Assembly (NCBI GenBank): GCA_945862505.1
Contig: CAMAYJ010000024.1
Coordinates: 1-33,758 of the forward strand
Direction: 5' to 3'
Source: Bifidobacterium breve
GTDB lineage: Bacteria > Actinomycetota > Acidimicrobiia > Acidimicrobiales > Acidimicrobilacustridaceae
Length of the DNA: 33,758 nucleotides
Made by a program: the position numbers and the translations under genes. Shown here piece after piece: positions 21,521 to 28,283 of this stretch. The notes beneath the pieces were generated by a model. That model saw nothing but the letters and a program-made list of their open reading frames with translations. It searched no databases and had not been told where the DNA came from. Numbering within the stretch: the first letter of the stretch is position 1; each line of letters opens with the position of its first letter.

Positions 21521-21541
21521 GCGGCGTTAATCAGTCGGCGC
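21508..21541. terminator. Inverted repeat across convergent gene ends
   Basis: GCGCCGA (21508-21514) and TCGGCGC (21535-21541) are perfect seven-base arms around a 20-base loop that contains the stop codons of both convergent genes. The stem is GC-rich but lacks a T-tract, so a bidirectional terminator is plausible but not certain. Confidence 0.35.
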
Positions 21542-22619
21542 GGTTGTTGATCGAGTCGTGAGAATCGATCTCGACAAGCGGCGGAAGCGCTTCGTGGTCA
21601 ATGAACAATCCCGATGCCGGTGATGTACGACTCAACGCGTCGGCAGCAAGGATGATGGCTGCATCGGTGTAGGTGGTGCGTTCGTCGGCGGGGAAGTGCA
21701 CTTCCTCTGGAGAAACGATGCCAGTCCAATAATGCCCGTCATCGCACCGAAGGGCTTGTGCCCACTCGAACAATTTCAGCGCTTGTTCGCGATTGCCAAC
21801 AGAAAGTTCGGCCATAAGACATTCGCAAGTTTCGGCTGCGGTGACCCATGGTCGGTCACTCACGCATCGAACGCCGCGATTTTCCATGACAAAGGTGTCG
21901 CGTCGAGCGTCGAGGCGTGCACGAGCTTCGGTGCGGGTCAGGACGCCGCCAAGAACGGGGTAGTACCAATCCATGGCCCAGCGAGCTTTTGGAGCGAAAG
22001 CGTCAGGGGCGTTGCCCAAGCAGTGTTGGCGAATCACGTGTGCAAGACGGGCGGCGCTGAGTTCCCAATCGGGACGTTCATGGCCGAGCAACTCGGCAAT
22101 TGCGATTGCACAACGAAGGCTGTGGCAAATACTTGAAGAGCCAGTGAGGAGTGCAAAGGACCATGGGGTACCGTCGGCGTGACGCGCCCAAAGGATTTCG
22201 CCTCGGGGGGTTTGCAGATCGAGAACGAACTCGATGGCTCGTTCCACGACTGGCCACATGGTTTCGACGAAGCCAGGGTCTCGGGCAACAAGCCAGTGAT
22301 GCCAAACGCCGGCAGCGATGTACGCAATCGTGTTTGCGTCGAGCTTGTCTTGTTCGATTCCATCAGCGAGGTAGTACTGGTGCCAAGAGCCGTCATGGCG
22401 TTGAATATCGGCAAGCCACTGGTAGGCGCGTTCTGCCTCAGGCCGCATCCCGGCGAGATCGAGTGCCATTGCTGCTTCGATGTGATTCCAAGGGTCAGCG
22501 TGGCCACCTGGATACCAGAGCACCATTCCGTTGGGCTGTTGCCAATCAGCGATTGCTTCTGCGGTCTGAAGAATCTGTTCGCCAGTGATGATGTCATCGA
22601 CTGATGGAATTTCGATCAT
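21531..22619 (-). CDS. Alpha/alpha-toroid protein (often annotated 'prenyltransferase')
   Basis: This 362-aa soluble protein is made of helical hairpin repeats: IADWQQPNGMVLWYPGGH, then DPWNHIEAAMALDLAGM, DIQRHDGSWHQYYL, IEFVLDLQTPRGEILW, and further copies to the C-terminus. Q..DG.W-like turns are typical of the terpenoid-cyclase/prenyltransferase and (alpha/alpha)6-glycosidase toroids. I see no DxDD or DCTAE cyclase motif, so a real terpene cyclase is unlikely; a sugar-active toroid is an alternative. The frame opens at 22745, but the ATG at 22619 forms a four-base ATGA overlap with the methyltransferase gene. The function is unknown; the operon suggests glycan or lipid-linked glycan processing. 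Confidence 0.75.
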   Translation of the reverse strand: MIEIPSVDDIITGEQILQTAEAIADWQQPNGMVLWYPGGHADPWNHIEAAMALDLAGMRPEAERAYQWLADIQRHDGSWHQYYLADGIEQDKLDANTIAYIAAGVWHHWLVARDPGFVETMWPVVERAIEFVLDLQTPRGEILWARHADGTPWSFALLTGSSSICHSLRCAIAIAELLGHERPDWELSAARLAHVIRQHCLGNAPDAFAPKARWAMDWYYPVLGGVLTRTEARARLDARRDTFVMENRGVRCVSDRPWVTAAETCECLMAELSVGNREQALKLFEWAQALRCDDGHYWTGIVSPEEVHFPADERTTYTDAAIILAADALSRTSPASGLFIDHEALPPLVEIDSHDSINNRAD

Positions 22620-23362
22620 TTCGAACCTGCCATTGCGGATTGGTGAATCGGTTTCGTGGCGTAGACCACAAGCGATTTGCCCAAGATCGGGTTGAGGGCT
22701 TTTTCGGTCAGTCGTGTGAGTGGTGGGGCCGAGATGATGTCCCACTCAAGAAATTTTGTGTACGCCTTGACTGCAACGTTGGTTTCGTTGCGTGGACCGA
22801 CTGCGCAACGCAGCCACCAGTACGGAGCATGAAGTGCGTGGGCGCGGTGTGAACTTCCGGGGAGAAGTCCAGCATCTTTCATTTTTTGCCGAAGTTCTGA
22901 CTCTGCATAAATGCGAACGTGGCCACCGACTGACTTCGGCGCGTAGTACTCGTCGGAGAGCTTCCAGCAGATCTTCTCGGGAAATTCGGCGGGAACAGTG
23001 ATGGCGATTGTTCCGCCGGGGCGAAGAACACGAATGAACTCCGAAAGCGCAGCACCGTCGTCAGGGACGTGCTCCATAACTTCCGATGCGATGATGCGAT
23101 CAAACGACCCATCAGCGAAGGGCAGCTTGGTGCCGTCACCATTGACCGATGTGCACGAAAGCGTTGGGGCGATTTCGCCGGCTTCTTTCATAGCGAATGC
23201 CGTTGCCGCGACCTGTTCAAGTTCAGGAACCGCCATGTCACAAGCAACCACGCGAGCGCCGCGGCGAAGTGCTTCAAACGCGTGGCGACCAAAACCACAG
23301 CCCAAGTCGAGCAGTCGGTCTCCGGGCCGTAGACCCAATCGGTCGTAATCAGCAGTCAGCAT
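22616..23362 (-). CDS. Class I SAM-dependent methyltransferase (Methyltransf_11 type)
   Basis: This 248-aa protein has motif I LDLGCGFGRH (19-27), an acidic strand-2 residue (VVACDMA), and the post-I/II region LPFADGSFDRIIASEVMEHV followed by LRPGGTIAITVPAEFPEKI, all of the UbiE/Methyltransf_11 type. The C-terminal part, with a WKLSDEYY segment and an aromatic patch, would form the acceptor lid. The acceptor is unknown. It sits 3 bases after the GT4 gene and overlaps the toroid gene by four bases, so the three proteins are made in step. Confidence 0.9.
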   Translation of the reverse strand: MLTADYDRLGLRPGDRLLDLGCGFGRHAFEALRRGARVVACDMAVPELEQVAATAFAMKEAGEIAPTLSCTSVNGDGTKLPFADGSFDRIIASEVMEHVPDDGAALSEFIRVLRPGGTIAITVPAEFPEKICWKLSDEYYAPKSVGGHVRIYAESELRQKMKDAGLLPGSSHRAHALHAPYWWLRCAVGPRNETNVAVKAYTKFLEWDIISAPPLTRLTEKALNPILGKSLVVYATKPIHQSAMAGSK

Positions 23363-23365
23363 CGG

Positions 23366-24739
23366 TCAGGCTCCCGGCCGTGTGATGCGTGAACGTTGGA
23401 AACGCGGGGCGGCACCAGCTCCGCCGGGACGGCGAGCTTGAATGTGGGGCGTCTCTGCGAGAAGCGCGCGGTAATGCTCAACCGTGCCCGTAGCGGTGTG
23501 ACGCCAGGTCCACCGATCAATAACACGTTGACGCCCGGCAGCGCCGATGCGATCGCGAAGTTCTGGATCATCAAGCGCGATGCCCAGCATGGCGGCGAGT
23601 GCTTCGCTATCGCCGGGAGGAACAACAAGCGCAGTTTCGTTGTGATTCCCAACGACCTCGGGCAATGCTCCACCACTGGTGGCAACGAGGGGAACGCCGC
23701 AGCTCATGGCTTCGATGGCCGGCAACGAGAAGCCTTCATACAGCGAAGGAACAACGGCAACCTGGGCCTCGGAATAGAGCTCAATGATGCGTTCTTCGGG
23801 GACGCCAGTAATGAAGGTGACGGCATCGCGAAGACCAAGTTCGTCGATGATCCGAGCCGATGGGCCGCCTTCTTTCAGTCGACCGATGACAACAAGCTCA
23901 ATATGGCGTTCGGTTCGGAGCTTGGCGATGGCCTCGAGGAGATAACGAAGACCCTTCATGGTTACGTCGGCGCTTGCGGTGGTGATGAGGCGTCCAGGGA
24001 TGCGCGTAACGCTAGGAATGGGCTTGAACAGTTCCTGATCCACACCCACGGGAACGACGTGCAGGCGATCAAGCGGCACTTTTTGATCGGCATGAATGTC
24101 GGCGAGTGAATTTTGCGAAACAGTAATGACACGAGGCATGCGAGATGCAACACGTGTTTGCATCTTCGTGAAGCCGTACCAGCGACCCTTTGAGAATCGC
24201 TTCCAGGATGTTTCGGCGTGTTCCATCTCGAGACGACGATCAACGGTGATCGGGTGATGGATGGTGGCGAGAACGGGAAGTCCAGCGCGTTCAATGCCAA
24301 GAAGGCCATAGCCAAGGCACTGGTTGTCTTGGACAAGATCGAACTCGTTGACACGAGTGCGCAGGTGCTGCCACGCGCGGTAGCTGAATGCGAGGGGCTC
24401 GGGGAACGACCCGGCCATGAAGGTTCCGACCTCGATGGCATCGCCGAGGGTCTTGATTTCCGAGGGGAACGGAAGACGCATCGGGAAGGCGTCGTTGTAG
24501 ATGTCGAGGCTTGGGAGTCCGACAAGGGGGACGCGGGGATCGAGGATTGGGTAGGGCTGGCCGCCGAGCACCTCAACCTCGTGGCCCATATCGACAAGGG
24601 CCTTGGTGAGGTGGCGGGTGTACACGCCTTGACCACCTACATGGGGTTTGCCCCGATAGGTGAGGAAAGCAATGCGCAGTGGGAGCTCGCCATCAGCGGC
24701 GAGCTCGGTGCGCCCGGAGGGTTCGGGGCGGGGGGACAT
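23366..24739 (-). CDS. Glycosyltransferase family 4
   Basis: This 457-aa GT-B retaining glycosyltransferase has an N-terminal nucleotide/acceptor domain with the GGQG loop (35-38) and LVQDNQCLGYGLL, and a second domain with the VPVGVD loop (about 230) and the E-x7-E donor motif EGFSLPAIE (335-343). A C-terminal Pro/Arg-rich tail (residues 432-457) is unlike the catalytic core. The donor and acceptor are unknown. It is the first gene of the GT4-methyltransferase-toroid operon and is preceded by a TTGAC-N4-GTCAA palindrome. Confidence 0.9.
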   Translation of the reverse strand: MSPRPEPSGRTELAADGELPLRIAFLTYRGKPHVGGQGVYTRHLTKALVDMGHEVEVLGGQPYPILDPRVPLVGLPSLDIYNDAFPMRLPFPSEIKTLGDAIEVGTFMAGSFPEPLAFSYRAWQHLRTRVNEFDLVQDNQCLGYGLLGIERAGLPVLATIHHPITVDRRLEMEHAETSWKRFSKGRWYGFTKMQTRVASRMPRVITVSQNSLADIHADQKVPLDRLHVVPVGVDQELFKPIPSVTRIPGRLITTASADVTMKGLRYLLEAIAKLRTERHIELVVIGRLKEGGPSARIIDELGLRDAVTFITGVPEERIIELYSEAQVAVVPSLYEGFSLPAIEAMSCGVPLVATSGGALPEVVGNHNETALVVPPGDSEALAAMLGIALDDPELRDRIGAAGRQRVIDRWTWRHTATGTVEHYRALLAETPHIQARRPGGAGAAPRFQRSRITRPGA

Positions 24740-24882: not shown

Positions 24883-26379
24883 TCACATCGAGTGCCGAGG
24901 CCTCAATTTTGAGCGCAGTGTTGTGAATCGATTGGTCGCGAACCACCAGGCGAGCGCAACGAGGATTATCGAGAGCCAGACGATTGGTAGTGGTCCGATG
25001 ACTGTTGCAATCGTGTCGCCTGACCGAAGCGCGACATCTTGTTGAAGCACAGCCTGTTCAGAGATTGATGTCCGTTGCACGACGTCGCCTGTTGGCGTCA
25101 CGATCGCTGACAACCCCGTCGGCGCGGCTTGCAAGACCCACCGACCAGTTTCAATGGCACGCAATTGGCTTGATGCAACTTGTTGCGTTTGCACCTGGGT
25201 TAACCAGTAACTCGAACCGTTTGTGGGATTGAGCAGAATCTGGCCACCGTGCAATACGCCATCGCGGGCGCGATTCGTAAAAAAGATTTCCCAAGAGATG
25301 GCAACCGCAAGGGTTCCGGCGGGCGTGTGCAGGACTGCGGGTTGTGTTCCCGCAACTGCATCTCGTGACGAGAGCCCACTATTTGTTCCGGCGATACGTT
25401 CGAGGAAGCTTCGCAGTGGAACATATTCGCCAAACGGAACACGATGCACTTTGTCGTAACGCTCACCGGAACTTCCGTCGGGCAAATACACGATCGACGC
25501 ATTTGCGAACTTCGATGAATCGATTCCTTCGGTTATGCCGACAACGAGAGTGGTATCGAGTTTCTTTGCCAGTGCTGAAAGAACAGCGTCCTCAGGGTTG
25601 GTAGCAATCGGACCTTCGACCTCGACGACGTTCTCGGGCCAAACGACCAGATCGACGGGGGTGGTTACGAGCGAGGTGGCTTCCACATGACGAAGGAGAA
25701 CATCGCGAGGATTCGTTTCGCTGGCACGAGTGCCTTGGGGGCCGCCGCCTTGGACGACTGCGGCATTGATGGTGCCGATCTCATGGCCGCTTGGAGCGAT
25801 GATGGCGACGAACCAAAGTGCAAGAATCCCGATGAGAGTGGCGGTGCCGAGAATATGGCGTCGTTCCCAGAGGGCGGAGAGCGCGACTCCGACGACAGCA
25901 ACCGCAAACGTCACGCCAATCGCGCAGAACACTCGAGCGATTTGACCGAGAGGAGCACTGGCTTGTCCCATTGCAGTCGTTGCGAGGGGAACGCCACCGA
26001 ATGGGAAGGTGCAGCGAGCGGCTTCGGCAAGTGTGAATGCGGCCGGAAGAGCAAGCCACCGAACCCATGAACTCGAGCTACGTCCGGGCACTGCGAGACC
26101 TGCAACGCCGACGTAGAGACCGAAGACCACGATGGCGATGAGGTAACCGGGAGCGGTGAGATCAACCATCCACAACATCGACGGTGTGAACCACGCTGCG
26201 GCGAAGACGATGGAGCGGACGATGCGAGCCCGTGGTTTCGCGTTGCGCAATAGGCGATCCCACATCGCGATGCCGAGAAACGCAAGCGGCCACCAGCCCC
26301 AAGGGGGAACCGAGGCGGCAACGCAGAGTCCGGCGATAACGGCGCGTAGGAGTGCTCGCAGAGTGCGCGGATCAATCAT
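24883..26379 (-). CDS. lnt: Apolipoprotein N-acyltransferase homologue with Ser at the nucleophile position
   Basis: This 498-aa protein has about six N-terminal membrane helices, a nitrilase-like domain (residues about 200-455) and a last membrane helix, the architecture of Lnt, which N-acylates the Cys of lipoproteins at the outer face of the membrane. Residues matching the E. coli catalytic set are Glu249 (WPENVV), Lys310 (YDKVHRVPFGEYVP) and Glu318. The nucleophile position, ICYE in E. coli (Cys387), reads ISWE here, so it is Ser362. The frame opens at 26463 but the ATG at 26379, 4 bases after the permease stop, is preferred. It ends the zinc-uptake operon. Two lipoproteins in the window are possible substrates. 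Confidence 0.87.
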   Translation of the reverse strand: MIDPRTLRALLRAVIAGLCVAASVPPWGWWPLAFLGIAMWDRLLRNAKPRARIVRSIVFAAAWFTPSMLWMVDLTAPGYLIAIVVFGLYVGVAGLAVPGRSSSSWVRWLALPAAFTLAEAARCTFPFGGVPLATTAMGQASAPLGQIARVFCAIGVTFAVAVVGVALSALWERRHILGTATLIGILALWFVAIIAPSGHEIGTINAAVVQGGGPQGTRASETNPRDVLLRHVEATSLVTTPVDLVVWPENVVEVEGPIATNPEDAVLSALAKKLDTTLVVGITEGIDSSKFANASIVYLPDGSSGERYDKVHRVPFGEYVPLRSFLERIAGTNSGLSSRDAVAGTQPAVLHTPAGTLAVAISWEIFFTNRARDGVLHGGQILLNPTNGSSYWLTQVQTQQVASSQLRAIETGRWVLQAAPTGLSAIVTPTGDVVQRTSISEQAVLQQDVALRSGDTIATVIGPLPIVWLSIILVALAWWFATNRFTTLRSKLRPRHSM

Positions 26380-26383
26380 TGAG

Positions 26384-27229
26384 CTAGGCGTGTTGCAGTT
26401 GTGTCCGACGGCCGATGCGAAGCGCGAGTTCTCGAACCGCAAGCACAATGAAGAAGATCGCAACTGCAGTGCCAGCCATCGTTGCGCCTGCAGCCGTGTC
26501 GAAGTGGTAAGTGATGAGTAGCCCGATAAAGATTGATGAAACGCCGATAAAGCAAGCGGTGGCCATCATCGCTGGAACTCGGCGCACGAGAAGTGCAGCG
26601 GTGGCTGGTGGCGCAATGAGTAATCCAAAGACAAGAAGTGTTCCGACCGTGCGGAATGAGGCCACGATGGCGATGGCGATCAGCGTGAGCATCGCGATAT
26701 GGGCGAGGCGTGGTCGCATTCCGAGCGTGGCCGCTTTGTCGGAGTTAAACGAGAGCGCCAAGAACAAACGGTGGAAAGCAATGACGGCGACCAACGTGAA
26801 TACGGCGGCCACAGACTGAAGCCAGATGTCGGAGTCCTTTACGCCCAATACCGAGCCGAAGAGGAATGAGGTGAGGTCACCAGAAAACGAACGTGTTCGA
26901 GAAATGATGACAACACCAAGCGCAAGCATGCCGACGAAGAGCAGCCCAATACCCGTATCAGTGGACAACTTTGAAGCGCGGTTCACCAGATTGATGCCGA
27001 TCACCATCACGATGGCGGAAACGAACGCACCAATTGCGATGTCGATGCCGATGATGAACGCGACAGCGATGCCGGGCAGCACTCCGTGGGCAAGCGCATC
27101 GCCCATGAACGACATTCCACGGATGACGACCCAGGTGCCGATCAGCGAGCACGCGATTGCAGCAAGAGATCCTGCGAGCAACGCTCGCAGGATGAACTCA
27201 TACTGAAAGGGTTCGATCAGCCAATCCAC
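26384..27229 (-). CDS. znuB: Metal (Zn/Mn) ABC transporter permease
   Basis: This 281-aa ABC-3 family permease has eight or nine membrane helices. Typical stretches are ACSLIGTWVVIRGMSFMGDALAHGVLPGIA, with the DA.AH..LPG motif that contacts the ATPase and metal path, and FRTVGTLLVFGLLIAPPATA. It would carry zinc or manganese across the membrane. It begins with GTG at 27229, 43 bases after the substrate-binding protein gene, and no ATPase gene lies between them or after it. The operon is preceded by a Zur-like operator, so zinc is the likely metal; the gene symbol follows from that inference. Confidence 0.88.
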   Translation of the reverse strand: MDWLIEPFQYEFILRALLAGSLAAIACSLIGTWVVIRGMSFMGDALAHGVLPGIAVAFIIGIDIAIGAFVSAIVMVIGINLVNRASKLSTDTGIGLLFVGMLALGVVIISRTRSFSGDLTSFLFGSVLGVKDSDIWLQSVAAVFTLVAVIAFHRLFLALSFNSDKAATLGMRPRLAHIAMLTLIAIAIVASFRTVGTLLVFGLLIAPPATAALLVRRVPAMMATACFIGVSSIFIGLLITYHFDTAAGATMAGTAVAIFFIVLAVRELALRIGRRTQLQHA

Positions 27230-27272: not shown

Positions 27273-28283
27273 TCAGCGTCCGCTGAGTCCATTGGCGATA
27301 AGGCGAGCCGTTGTGACGATGAGACCGGGGTAGGTCGCCGTTGGACTTCCCGGCTTGCCAAGTGTGTCGGTGGAAAGCTCGACCACGCTGACTTGAGAGC
27401 CAACTTCGCGAGCCAGCGATTCGATCAGTTTCGAAGAAACGGTGCTTTCCGAGAAGATCGCTTTCACATTGTTCGCTTTGATGAGTGCGACAAGTTTGCT
27501 GAGGTCGGCAGCACTGGGCTCGGCCAAGGTCGAACCTCCGGGGATGACCGTCCCGATCACTTCAAGATTGAATCGTTGAGCGAAGTATTCGAGGGCGTCG
27601 TGATTCGTGATGAGTTTGCGCTGGTCGGCGGGGAGTTTGGCAAGGAGTGCGCGTGCTTCGGCTTCAGCGGCACGAGCGGCATCGGCGTAGGTTGCCGCTC
27701 GCTGTTGGAATGGCGCGGCATCGAGTCCGGTTGTTGTCGCGAGTTGGGTTGCCACAAGAGATGCCGCTGTAGCCATGCGTTCCGGATCTAGCCACACATG
27801 TGGGTCTTCGGAACCGTGGCCGCCTGCTTCTTCTTCGGCGTGTCCTTCTTTTTCGTCAGCAGAGGTGATGGAGAGTGGATCAAGCTCTTCTCCCACATCG
27901 AAAACGGGCACGCCATCTTTTTGAGCCCCTTCAAGCGCCGATTCGAGACGCTCTTCGAGCCCGAGCCCGTTCGCCACGATCAAGGAGGCGTCCCGCAATC
28001 GCGCGGCCTGTGCCGCGGAAGGCTCAAAGTCATGCGGGTCGGCACCCAGTGGGATGAGGACCTCAACGTTGACCTGATCGCCACCCACCTGACGGACAAG
28101 GTCGCCGAGGATTGGCGTGGTTGCAATTACGAGTGTCCGATTCGAGTCGGGGACTGTCGATGAGGTGGCGTCTTTCGAACCACCGCCGCATGAGGCAAGA
28201 AGTCCCAGCACCGAGAGGAGGGCCAGCACCGCGAAGGTTGCGGAGCGCTTGCGAGATGTGGTCAAGGACTGCGTGTTGGTCAT
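27273..28283 (-). CDS. znuA: Zinc ABC transporter substrate-binding lipoprotein
   Basis: This 336-aa cluster A-I metal-binding lipoprotein has a lipobox LLASC with Cys32. Metal ligands expected from ZnuA/AztC-like proteins are His84 (ADPHDFEP), His162 (DPHVWLDP) and His228 (TNHDALEYF). Between them a His/Glu-rich loop (residues about 144-158, GHAEEEAGGHG) is typical of zinc-specific members and may act as a zinc sensor or trap. It is the first gene of the operon with a permease and lnt. A perfect palindrome of Zur type lies 19 bases upstream of the ATG, so repression at high zinc is expected. GGAG about 7 bases before the ATG is the ribosome-binding site. Confidence 0.92.
   Translation of the reverse strand: MTNTQSLTTSRKRSATFAVLALLSVLGLLASCGGGSKDATSSTVPDSNRTLVIATTPILGDLVRQVGGDQVNVEVLIPLGADPHDFEPSAAQAARLRDASLIVANGLGLEERLESALEGAQKDGVPVFDVGEELDPLSITSADEKEGHAEEEAGGHGSEDPHVWLDPERMATAASLVATQLATTTGLDAAPFQQRAATYADAARAAEAEARALLAKLPADQRKLITNHDALEYFAQRFNLEVIGTVIPGGSTLAEPSAADLSKLVALIKANNVKAIFSESTVSSKLIESLAREVGSQVSVVELSTDTLGKPGSPTATYPGLIVTTARLIANGLSGR

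Follow-up and report, generated by a model that had tools for sequence, protein, structure and literature searches.

Serine at the nucleophile position of Lnt homologues in several actinobacterial groups, and a probable acyl-serine route to lipoprotein N-acylation

The locus and its product

The window, by which is meant the whole stretch of 33,758 nucleotides that was analysed, carries on its minus strand an lnt homologue whose reading frame begins with ATG and continues uninterrupted (Table 1), so that a frameshift or otherwise broken gene is ruled out. The product scores 204.8 bits against the NCBIfam model TIGR00546 (lnt), which passes the curated equivalog cut-off of 132.9, and it contains the Pfam domains LNT_N (PF20154) and then CN_hydrolase (PF00795), both above cut-off. 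An AlphaFold model, for which the input was the window protein together with 50 relatives, has a mean pLDDT of 91.4 and matches E. coli Lnt (8b0p_A) with a Z score of 41.0 over 475 residues at an rmsd of 2.7, which corresponds to the full-length Lnt fold, the identity in the structural alignment being 22%. The model also matches the structures of the E. coli C387S mutant (8b0m, Z 40.5; 5vrh, Z 39.9). By profile, domains and predicted fold, the window protein is thus an Lnt homologue.

Table 1. Features at the lnt locus and codons of the putative active site
Feature	Position	Strand	Basis or remark
lnt homologue, Ser for catalytic Cys	24883..26379	(-)	498 aa; profile, domains, predicted fold
Ser362 codon (TCT), aligned to E. 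coli Cys387, putative nucleophile	25294..25296	(-)	alignment
Glu249 codon, aligned to E. coli Glu267, putative general base	25633..25635	(-)	alignment
Lys310 codon, aligned to E. coli Lys335	25450..25452	(-)	alignment
Glu318 codon (PFGE), aligned to E. coli Glu343	25426..25428	(-)	alignment
Trp363-Glu364 codons, aligned to E. coli Tyr388-Glu389	25288..25293	(-)	alignment
znuB-like gene, ABC-3 permease	26384..27229	(-)	upstream, same strand as lnt; stop 4 bases before the lnt ATG
znuA-like gene, binding protein	27273..28283	(-)	lipobox-like LASC (Cys32), found by eye; same gene run
Family 4 glycosyltransferase	23366..24739	(-)	downstream of lnt; homologue comparison
SAM methyltransferase	22616..23362	(-)	with the glycosyltransferase in 45/80 related loci (80 of 144 found)
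404-aa ORF	21531..22745	(-)	adjoins the methyltransferase; without a Pfam match at E 1e-4

The lipobox-like motif of the ZnuA-like protein suggests that a likely Lnt substrate is encoded beside lnt. The surroundings of lnt were compared across the related loci of a genome-contig scan, in which 144 loci were found and 80 were kept. Both znuA and znuB are present in 15 of these 80 loci, while a glycosyltransferase gene lies downstream of lnt on the same strand in 53 of them, or in 47 of the 66 loci that have at least 2 kb of DNA on that side. No conserved gene between lnt and the glycosyltransferase gene is common to the six loci examined at that point.

Residues of the active site

According to the excerpts consulted of two papers (PMC8689077, PMC8048626), E. 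coli Lnt passes an acyl chain from PE to Cys387 and from there to the amine of the lipoprotein. The alignment, numbered by the Lnt of E. coli MG1655 (triad E267-K335-C387), places Ser362 of the window protein, within the motif AISWEIFF, at the position of Cys387. The initial annotation had read the nucleophile motif as ISWE instead of ICYE and had held the Glu and Lys of the triad and the Glu of PFGE to be intact; the alignment agrees on every count, with Glu249, Lys310 and Glu318 as the equivalents of E267, K335 and E343, and Glu364 is in addition the equivalent of E389; E343 and E389 are both essential in the E. coli enzyme. The window protein therefore has the fold, the Glu and the Lys of the nitrilase superfamily, but Ser stands where the Glu-Lys-Cys triad has Cys, and because the catalytic Cys387 of Lnt is replaced, the protein is classed here as a Ser-variant Lnt homologue and not as a canonical Cys-Lnt.

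Apart from the nucleophile, the window protein has in common with E. coli Lnt the order of domains, the membrane part and nitrilase fold, the Glu and Lys of the triad, the second Glu (Glu318) and the PFGE loop; it differs in having Trp for Tyr388, Ala for Trp237 and Leu for Trp148. Two residues essential in E. coli, Trp237 and Tyr388, are accordingly not kept (Ala219 and Trp363), but W237 is poorly conserved in Cys-type rows too and the Tyr388 position likewise varies among the Cys-type rows read, so these positions do not define the Lnt family in this phylum. Across most rows of the SWE group, W237 is replaced by Ala and, in the lid loop, F146 by Val and W148 by Leu; W148 is retained in most Ser rows outside that group.

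The equivalents of E267, K335 and E343 occur in 165 of 165, 166 of 166 and 166 of 166 of the Ser proteins that cover the respective site (the fragment L056 does not extend over the E267 site, hence the lower total), and within the scan set they persist in relatives that share as little as about 43% identity with the query. The alignment was searched for a compensating residue shared by every Ser clade, and none was found; after SFE/SYE, the next position tends towards Gly or Ala in two Ser clades, and Ala also occurs there in the Cys-nucleophile rows L098 and L103.

The window protein has three other cysteines (Cys19, Cys123 and Cys152). The best-kept other cysteine of the SWE clade lies close to the N-terminal membrane helix (E. 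coli position 23) and occurs in 48 of 116 rows, and as none is kept in more rows than this, another cysteine as the nucleophile is ruled out in that clade; another active-site cysteine, one of the two findings that the initial annotation had named as refuting its reading, was thus not found for the window protein. In the SFE/SYE clade, 36 of 36 Ser rows (L173, for example) have a cysteine at each of two positions beside W237, E. coli 233 and 238. This pair occurs in 0 of the 116 SWE-clade rows and is also missing from the 12 rows of family f53 and from the two second copies of family f75, and it is found in L098 and L103 of the SFE/SYE clade, which have a Cys nucleophile as well, so that it does not look like a stand-in for Cys387. 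It looks like a feature of the SFE/SYE clade, perhaps a disulfide in the loop near the active site, although on conservation another thiol may still serve in that clade.

Distribution of serine and cysteine

All 80 loci kept (of the 144 found) from the genome-contig scan have SWE, a count that is biased because one of the six seed patterns of the scan contained SWE. The lnt-profile surveys of the class and of the phylum were run without such a seed. In the class draw, the profile matched at E 0.001 in 236 of 246 genomes and above its cut-off in 220, and in the phylum draw in 234 of 296 and in 159, the looser E 0.001 counts taking in other nitrilase-like proteins. Among the matches listed, the class loci that were read comprise 71 with Ser and 50 with Cys out of 121, and those from the rest of the phylum 14 with Ser and 84 with Cys out of 98. 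These counts describe a non-random sample and are not frequencies: 30 loci in each survey were the top scorers with the lnt profile, which favours Cys types, the others were hand-picked to cover families, and 40 loci were chosen after the first result to fill family f53, the window's own order and further families of the class.

Within the own order, Ser occurs in 34 of the 34 loci read among the matches listed (these are included in the 71 of 121 for the class), and the window has Ser as well, so that the suspicion voiced in the initial annotation that SWE is a clade-wide variant is borne out by the alignment of actinobacterial homologues. The class loci outside the own order number 37 with Ser and 50 with Cys, and in family f53 Ser was read in 12 of 12 loci, both again among the matches listed. 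Over the whole alignment, Ser is found in 166 of 301 sequences (80 of the 166 come from the seed-biased scan), which rules out a sequencing error or a unique mutation; Ser in place of Cys is a lineage-wide state in several actinobacterial groups.

Phylogeny and selection

Two trees were used, one of 191 rows (out of the 261 then aligned, 10 of the 80 scan loci being included), from which the nucleophile columns had been removed, and one of 93 chosen rows with a bootstrap of 200; the 40 later loci are in neither. The 191-row tree needs five changes between Ser and Cys, or four under a simpler model, and the 93-row tree needs five, at least four of which are forced by well supported branches. 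A single origin of Ser is unsupported, being present in 0% of the 200 bootstrap trees. The change counts alone cannot tell gain from loss; with Cys in E. coli Lnt and in 84 of the 98 rows that were read from the rest of the phylum among the matches listed, Cys to Ser is the direction that we infer.

The Ser rows fall into four groups: the SWE clade of the own order, into which one SYE row and the locus L204, from a different order, also fall; the SFE/SYE clade, drawn from further families in the class; the f53 family; and the second copies of the genomes G313 and G382. In the 93-row tree, the SWE clade together with 11 Cys rows (CWE, CYE, CFE, CWD, CFD) forms one side of a 100/100 branch, and the CWE copies of G313 and G382, which are presumably mycobacterial genomes, group with the SWE clade. 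The proven mycobacterial Lnts BCG_2070c and MSMEG_3860, which unlike the window protein have a Cys nucleophile, are possibly among the nearest proven relatives of this clade. The single-copy Cys-Lnts L098 and L103 (genomes G062 and G038) are placed inside the otherwise Ser-type SFE/SYE clade, where their Cys may be a reversion from Ser or the mark of an early branch.

The Ser-type lnt is under purifying selection: dN/dS lies between 0.06 and 0.17 in 16 pairs of close relatives, the ratio being rough in the part of the pairs where dS exceeds 1. Of the Ser rows in the 191-row tree, 49 use a TCN codon and 10 an AGY codon, and a minimum of six switches between the two types is required among them, part of which reflect separate Ser origins. 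Because such a switch needs either another residue (Cys or Thr) as an intermediate or a double change, the switches indicate that Ser is kept.

Copy number and genome complement

A single lnt match at E <= 1e-12 is found in 48 of the 50 Ser genomes, including G140 and G167, which are listed as one contig each; the other two, G313 and G382, have one Ser and one Cys copy. Since 24 of the 25 Cys genomes likewise have a single match above the cut-off, the Ser proteins as a rule take the same one-copy slot. Within the window's own genome, one protein lies above the cut-off in the lnt search of the 115-contig assembly, and no second, Cys-containing Lnt, which by the initial annotation would have refuted its reading, lies above it. 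The two other CN_hydrolase proteins of this genome show similarity to a soluble amidase (deaminated glutathione amidase) and to NAD synthase, although both are below the cut-offs of those models and the matched stretches alone were submitted.

LspA is present in 25 of the 25 genomes tested and Lgt in 24 of them, all 25 having a Ser protein, and a genome of the same genus is among the 24. No Lgt match was found in the 115 contigs of the own genome, which is rated 99.55% complete. This is probably an assembly gap, and absences in the own assembly are for this reason weak evidence.

Several small genomes of the same order, mostly of family and genus codes f4/g13, have a weak lnt match or none among the matches listed. 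The gene seems to have been lost in them, and the enzyme would then be dispensable there.

A probable serine-nucleophile Lnt

The reading that we favour, and hold to be probable, is that the window protein, the one Lnt that the search of its genome brought up, is a working enzyme with a Ser nucleophile and an oxyester acyl-enzyme. If it follows the E. coli scheme, Glu249 would activate Ser362, with Lys310 and Glu318 supporting the transition state; the sn-1 acyl chain of a phospholipid would be transferred to Ser362 as an oxyester, with release of the lysophospholipid, and a lipoprotein would then accept the chain at the free amine of its diacylglyceryl-cysteine and so become triacylated. Both steps, the acylation of Ser and the transfer to the amine, are thus proposed from the E. 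coli scheme. Judged by their residues, the native Ser proteins are equipped for the putative first half-reaction, and the conservation of the catalytic residues, the single copy and the repeated origin argue for a working enzyme that would complete the second step as well. The predicted fold, the low dN/dS, the codon switches and the presence of Lgt and LspA count on the same side, as does the formation of an oxyester by the C387S mutant in the excerpted text of PMC6828757.

The E. coli mutant also provides a point against this reading. In the excerpts consulted, C387S forms the oxygen-ester acyl-enzyme and does not transfer the acyl group (PMC6828757), and its activity is described as low (PMC10313180). 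The mutant (5vrh, 8b0m) has the same nucleophile change as the window protein, retains Glu and Lys and has a fold similar to the predicted one, but it is an engineered single change with, in those excerpts, little or no N-acylation, whereas in the window protein Ser occurs naturally, and all other parts have evolved along with it. The absence of a compensating change shared by the Ser clades, the lack of an Lgt match in the own genome, the same-order genomes with weak or no lnt matches and the cysteine pair of the SFE/SYE clade also weigh against a working Ser-Lnt.

The strongest counter-evidence comes from Mycobacterium bovis BCG. The paralogue BCG_2279c (Rv2262c-Rv2261c) has, like the window protein, a natural Ser at the Cys387 position; as reported in the part of PMC3850990 that was available, it does not replace the Cys-Lnt BCG_2070c, which is fused to a Ppm domain, for four lipoproteins, and its authors judge a loss of N-acylation likely. 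This objection is weakened because BCG_2279c is, in the same source, a second copy beside a working Cys-Lnt, while the window protein is the one Lnt found in its genome, and because the Ser second-copy rows L219 and L261, which we take to be of the BCG_2279c type, branch away from the query in the tree. A natural Ser was known for one mycobacterial paralogue; Ser as the sole Lnt of lineages appears to be new, literature searches among open-licence papers having found no report of it.

Alternative explanations

The acyl-serine and the lysophospholipid might be formed as proposed and the chain then be passed to an acceptor other than the lipoprotein amine, such as water (in the manner of a phospholipase A1), a hydroxyl, or some glycan or glycolipid that the glycosyltransferase and methyltransferase encoded nearby would produce. 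The oxyester that C387S makes without N-acylation (PMC6828757, as excerpted), the glycosyltransferase downstream in 53 of the 80 related loci kept of 144, the altered lid loop of the SWE clade and the invariant Glu, Lys and Glu, which imply that some chemistry has been kept, are all consistent with this. We consider it unlikely, however, since the protein occupies the single Lnt slot, the appearance of Ser in at least four places of the tree with unchanged Glu, Lys and Glu does not suggest one new acceptor, and most Ser rows that lie outside the SWE group retain W148. If the protein were instead an inactive remnant or a regulatory pseudoenzyme, N-acylation having been lost, the failure of BCG_2279c to compensate for the loss of the Cys-Lnt (in the same partial text of PMC3850990) and the tolerance of loss that the same-order genomes with weak or no matches point to would be accommodated. 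A pseudoenzyme would nevertheless be expected to drift at its catalytic sites, while no Ser protein that covers the Glu, Lys and Glu sites lacks any of these residues, dN/dS is low and Ser persists through codon switches, so that this explanation is less probable still.

It is very improbable that another thiol does the work, whether in a second Cys-Lnt of the genome or in a different cysteine near the active site. The fragmented own assembly, from which a gene could be missing as Lgt probably is, the three other cysteines of the window protein and the 233/238 pair of the SFE/SYE clade are what such an explanation can draw on. Against it stand the single Lnt in 48 of the 50 Ser genomes, the one-contig assemblies among them, the poor conservation of other cysteines in the SWE clade and the distribution of the pair, which is absent from the SWE rows and from the f53 and f75 rows and accompanies a Cys nucleophile in L098 and L103; the other CN_hydrolase proteins of the own genome, moreover, resemble a soluble amidase and NAD synthase.

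Possible consequences of a serine-type Lnt

The broader proposition, that whole actinobacterial lineages triacylate their lipoproteins through an acyl-serine and reached this chemistry several times independently from a Cys enzyme, is one that we regard as evenly poised. If it is true, the thioester of Lnt, which judging by the E. coli mutant is apparently needed for the amide step, is replaceable once the site has been tuned. Descriptions of Lnt treat it as a thiol enzyme, and the change to Ser has served as an inactive control; if several lineages rely on Ser proteins as their only Lnt, comparing native Ser enzymes with Cys enzymes becomes a direct test of what the thioester contributes to the second step. 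Inhibitors of Lnt that are directed at the thiol would be expected to miss organisms with a Ser-Lnt, and the presence of Cys at the nucleophile position should not decide whether an lnt gene is taken to be functional.

Labels of the records

Two observations concern the labels under which the sequences are filed. The loci L204 (genome G028) and L088 (genome G076) carry the same genus code and have different Lnts, an SWE protein that groups with the window's order and a CFE protein respectively; gene transfer or contamination of a bin may account for the discrepancy. Close relatives of the window lnt also occur in records titled Bifidobacterium breve or Acidobacteria (L004, L014, L070 and L022), and these titles look wrong, the close relatives being otherwise in Acidimicrobiia records.
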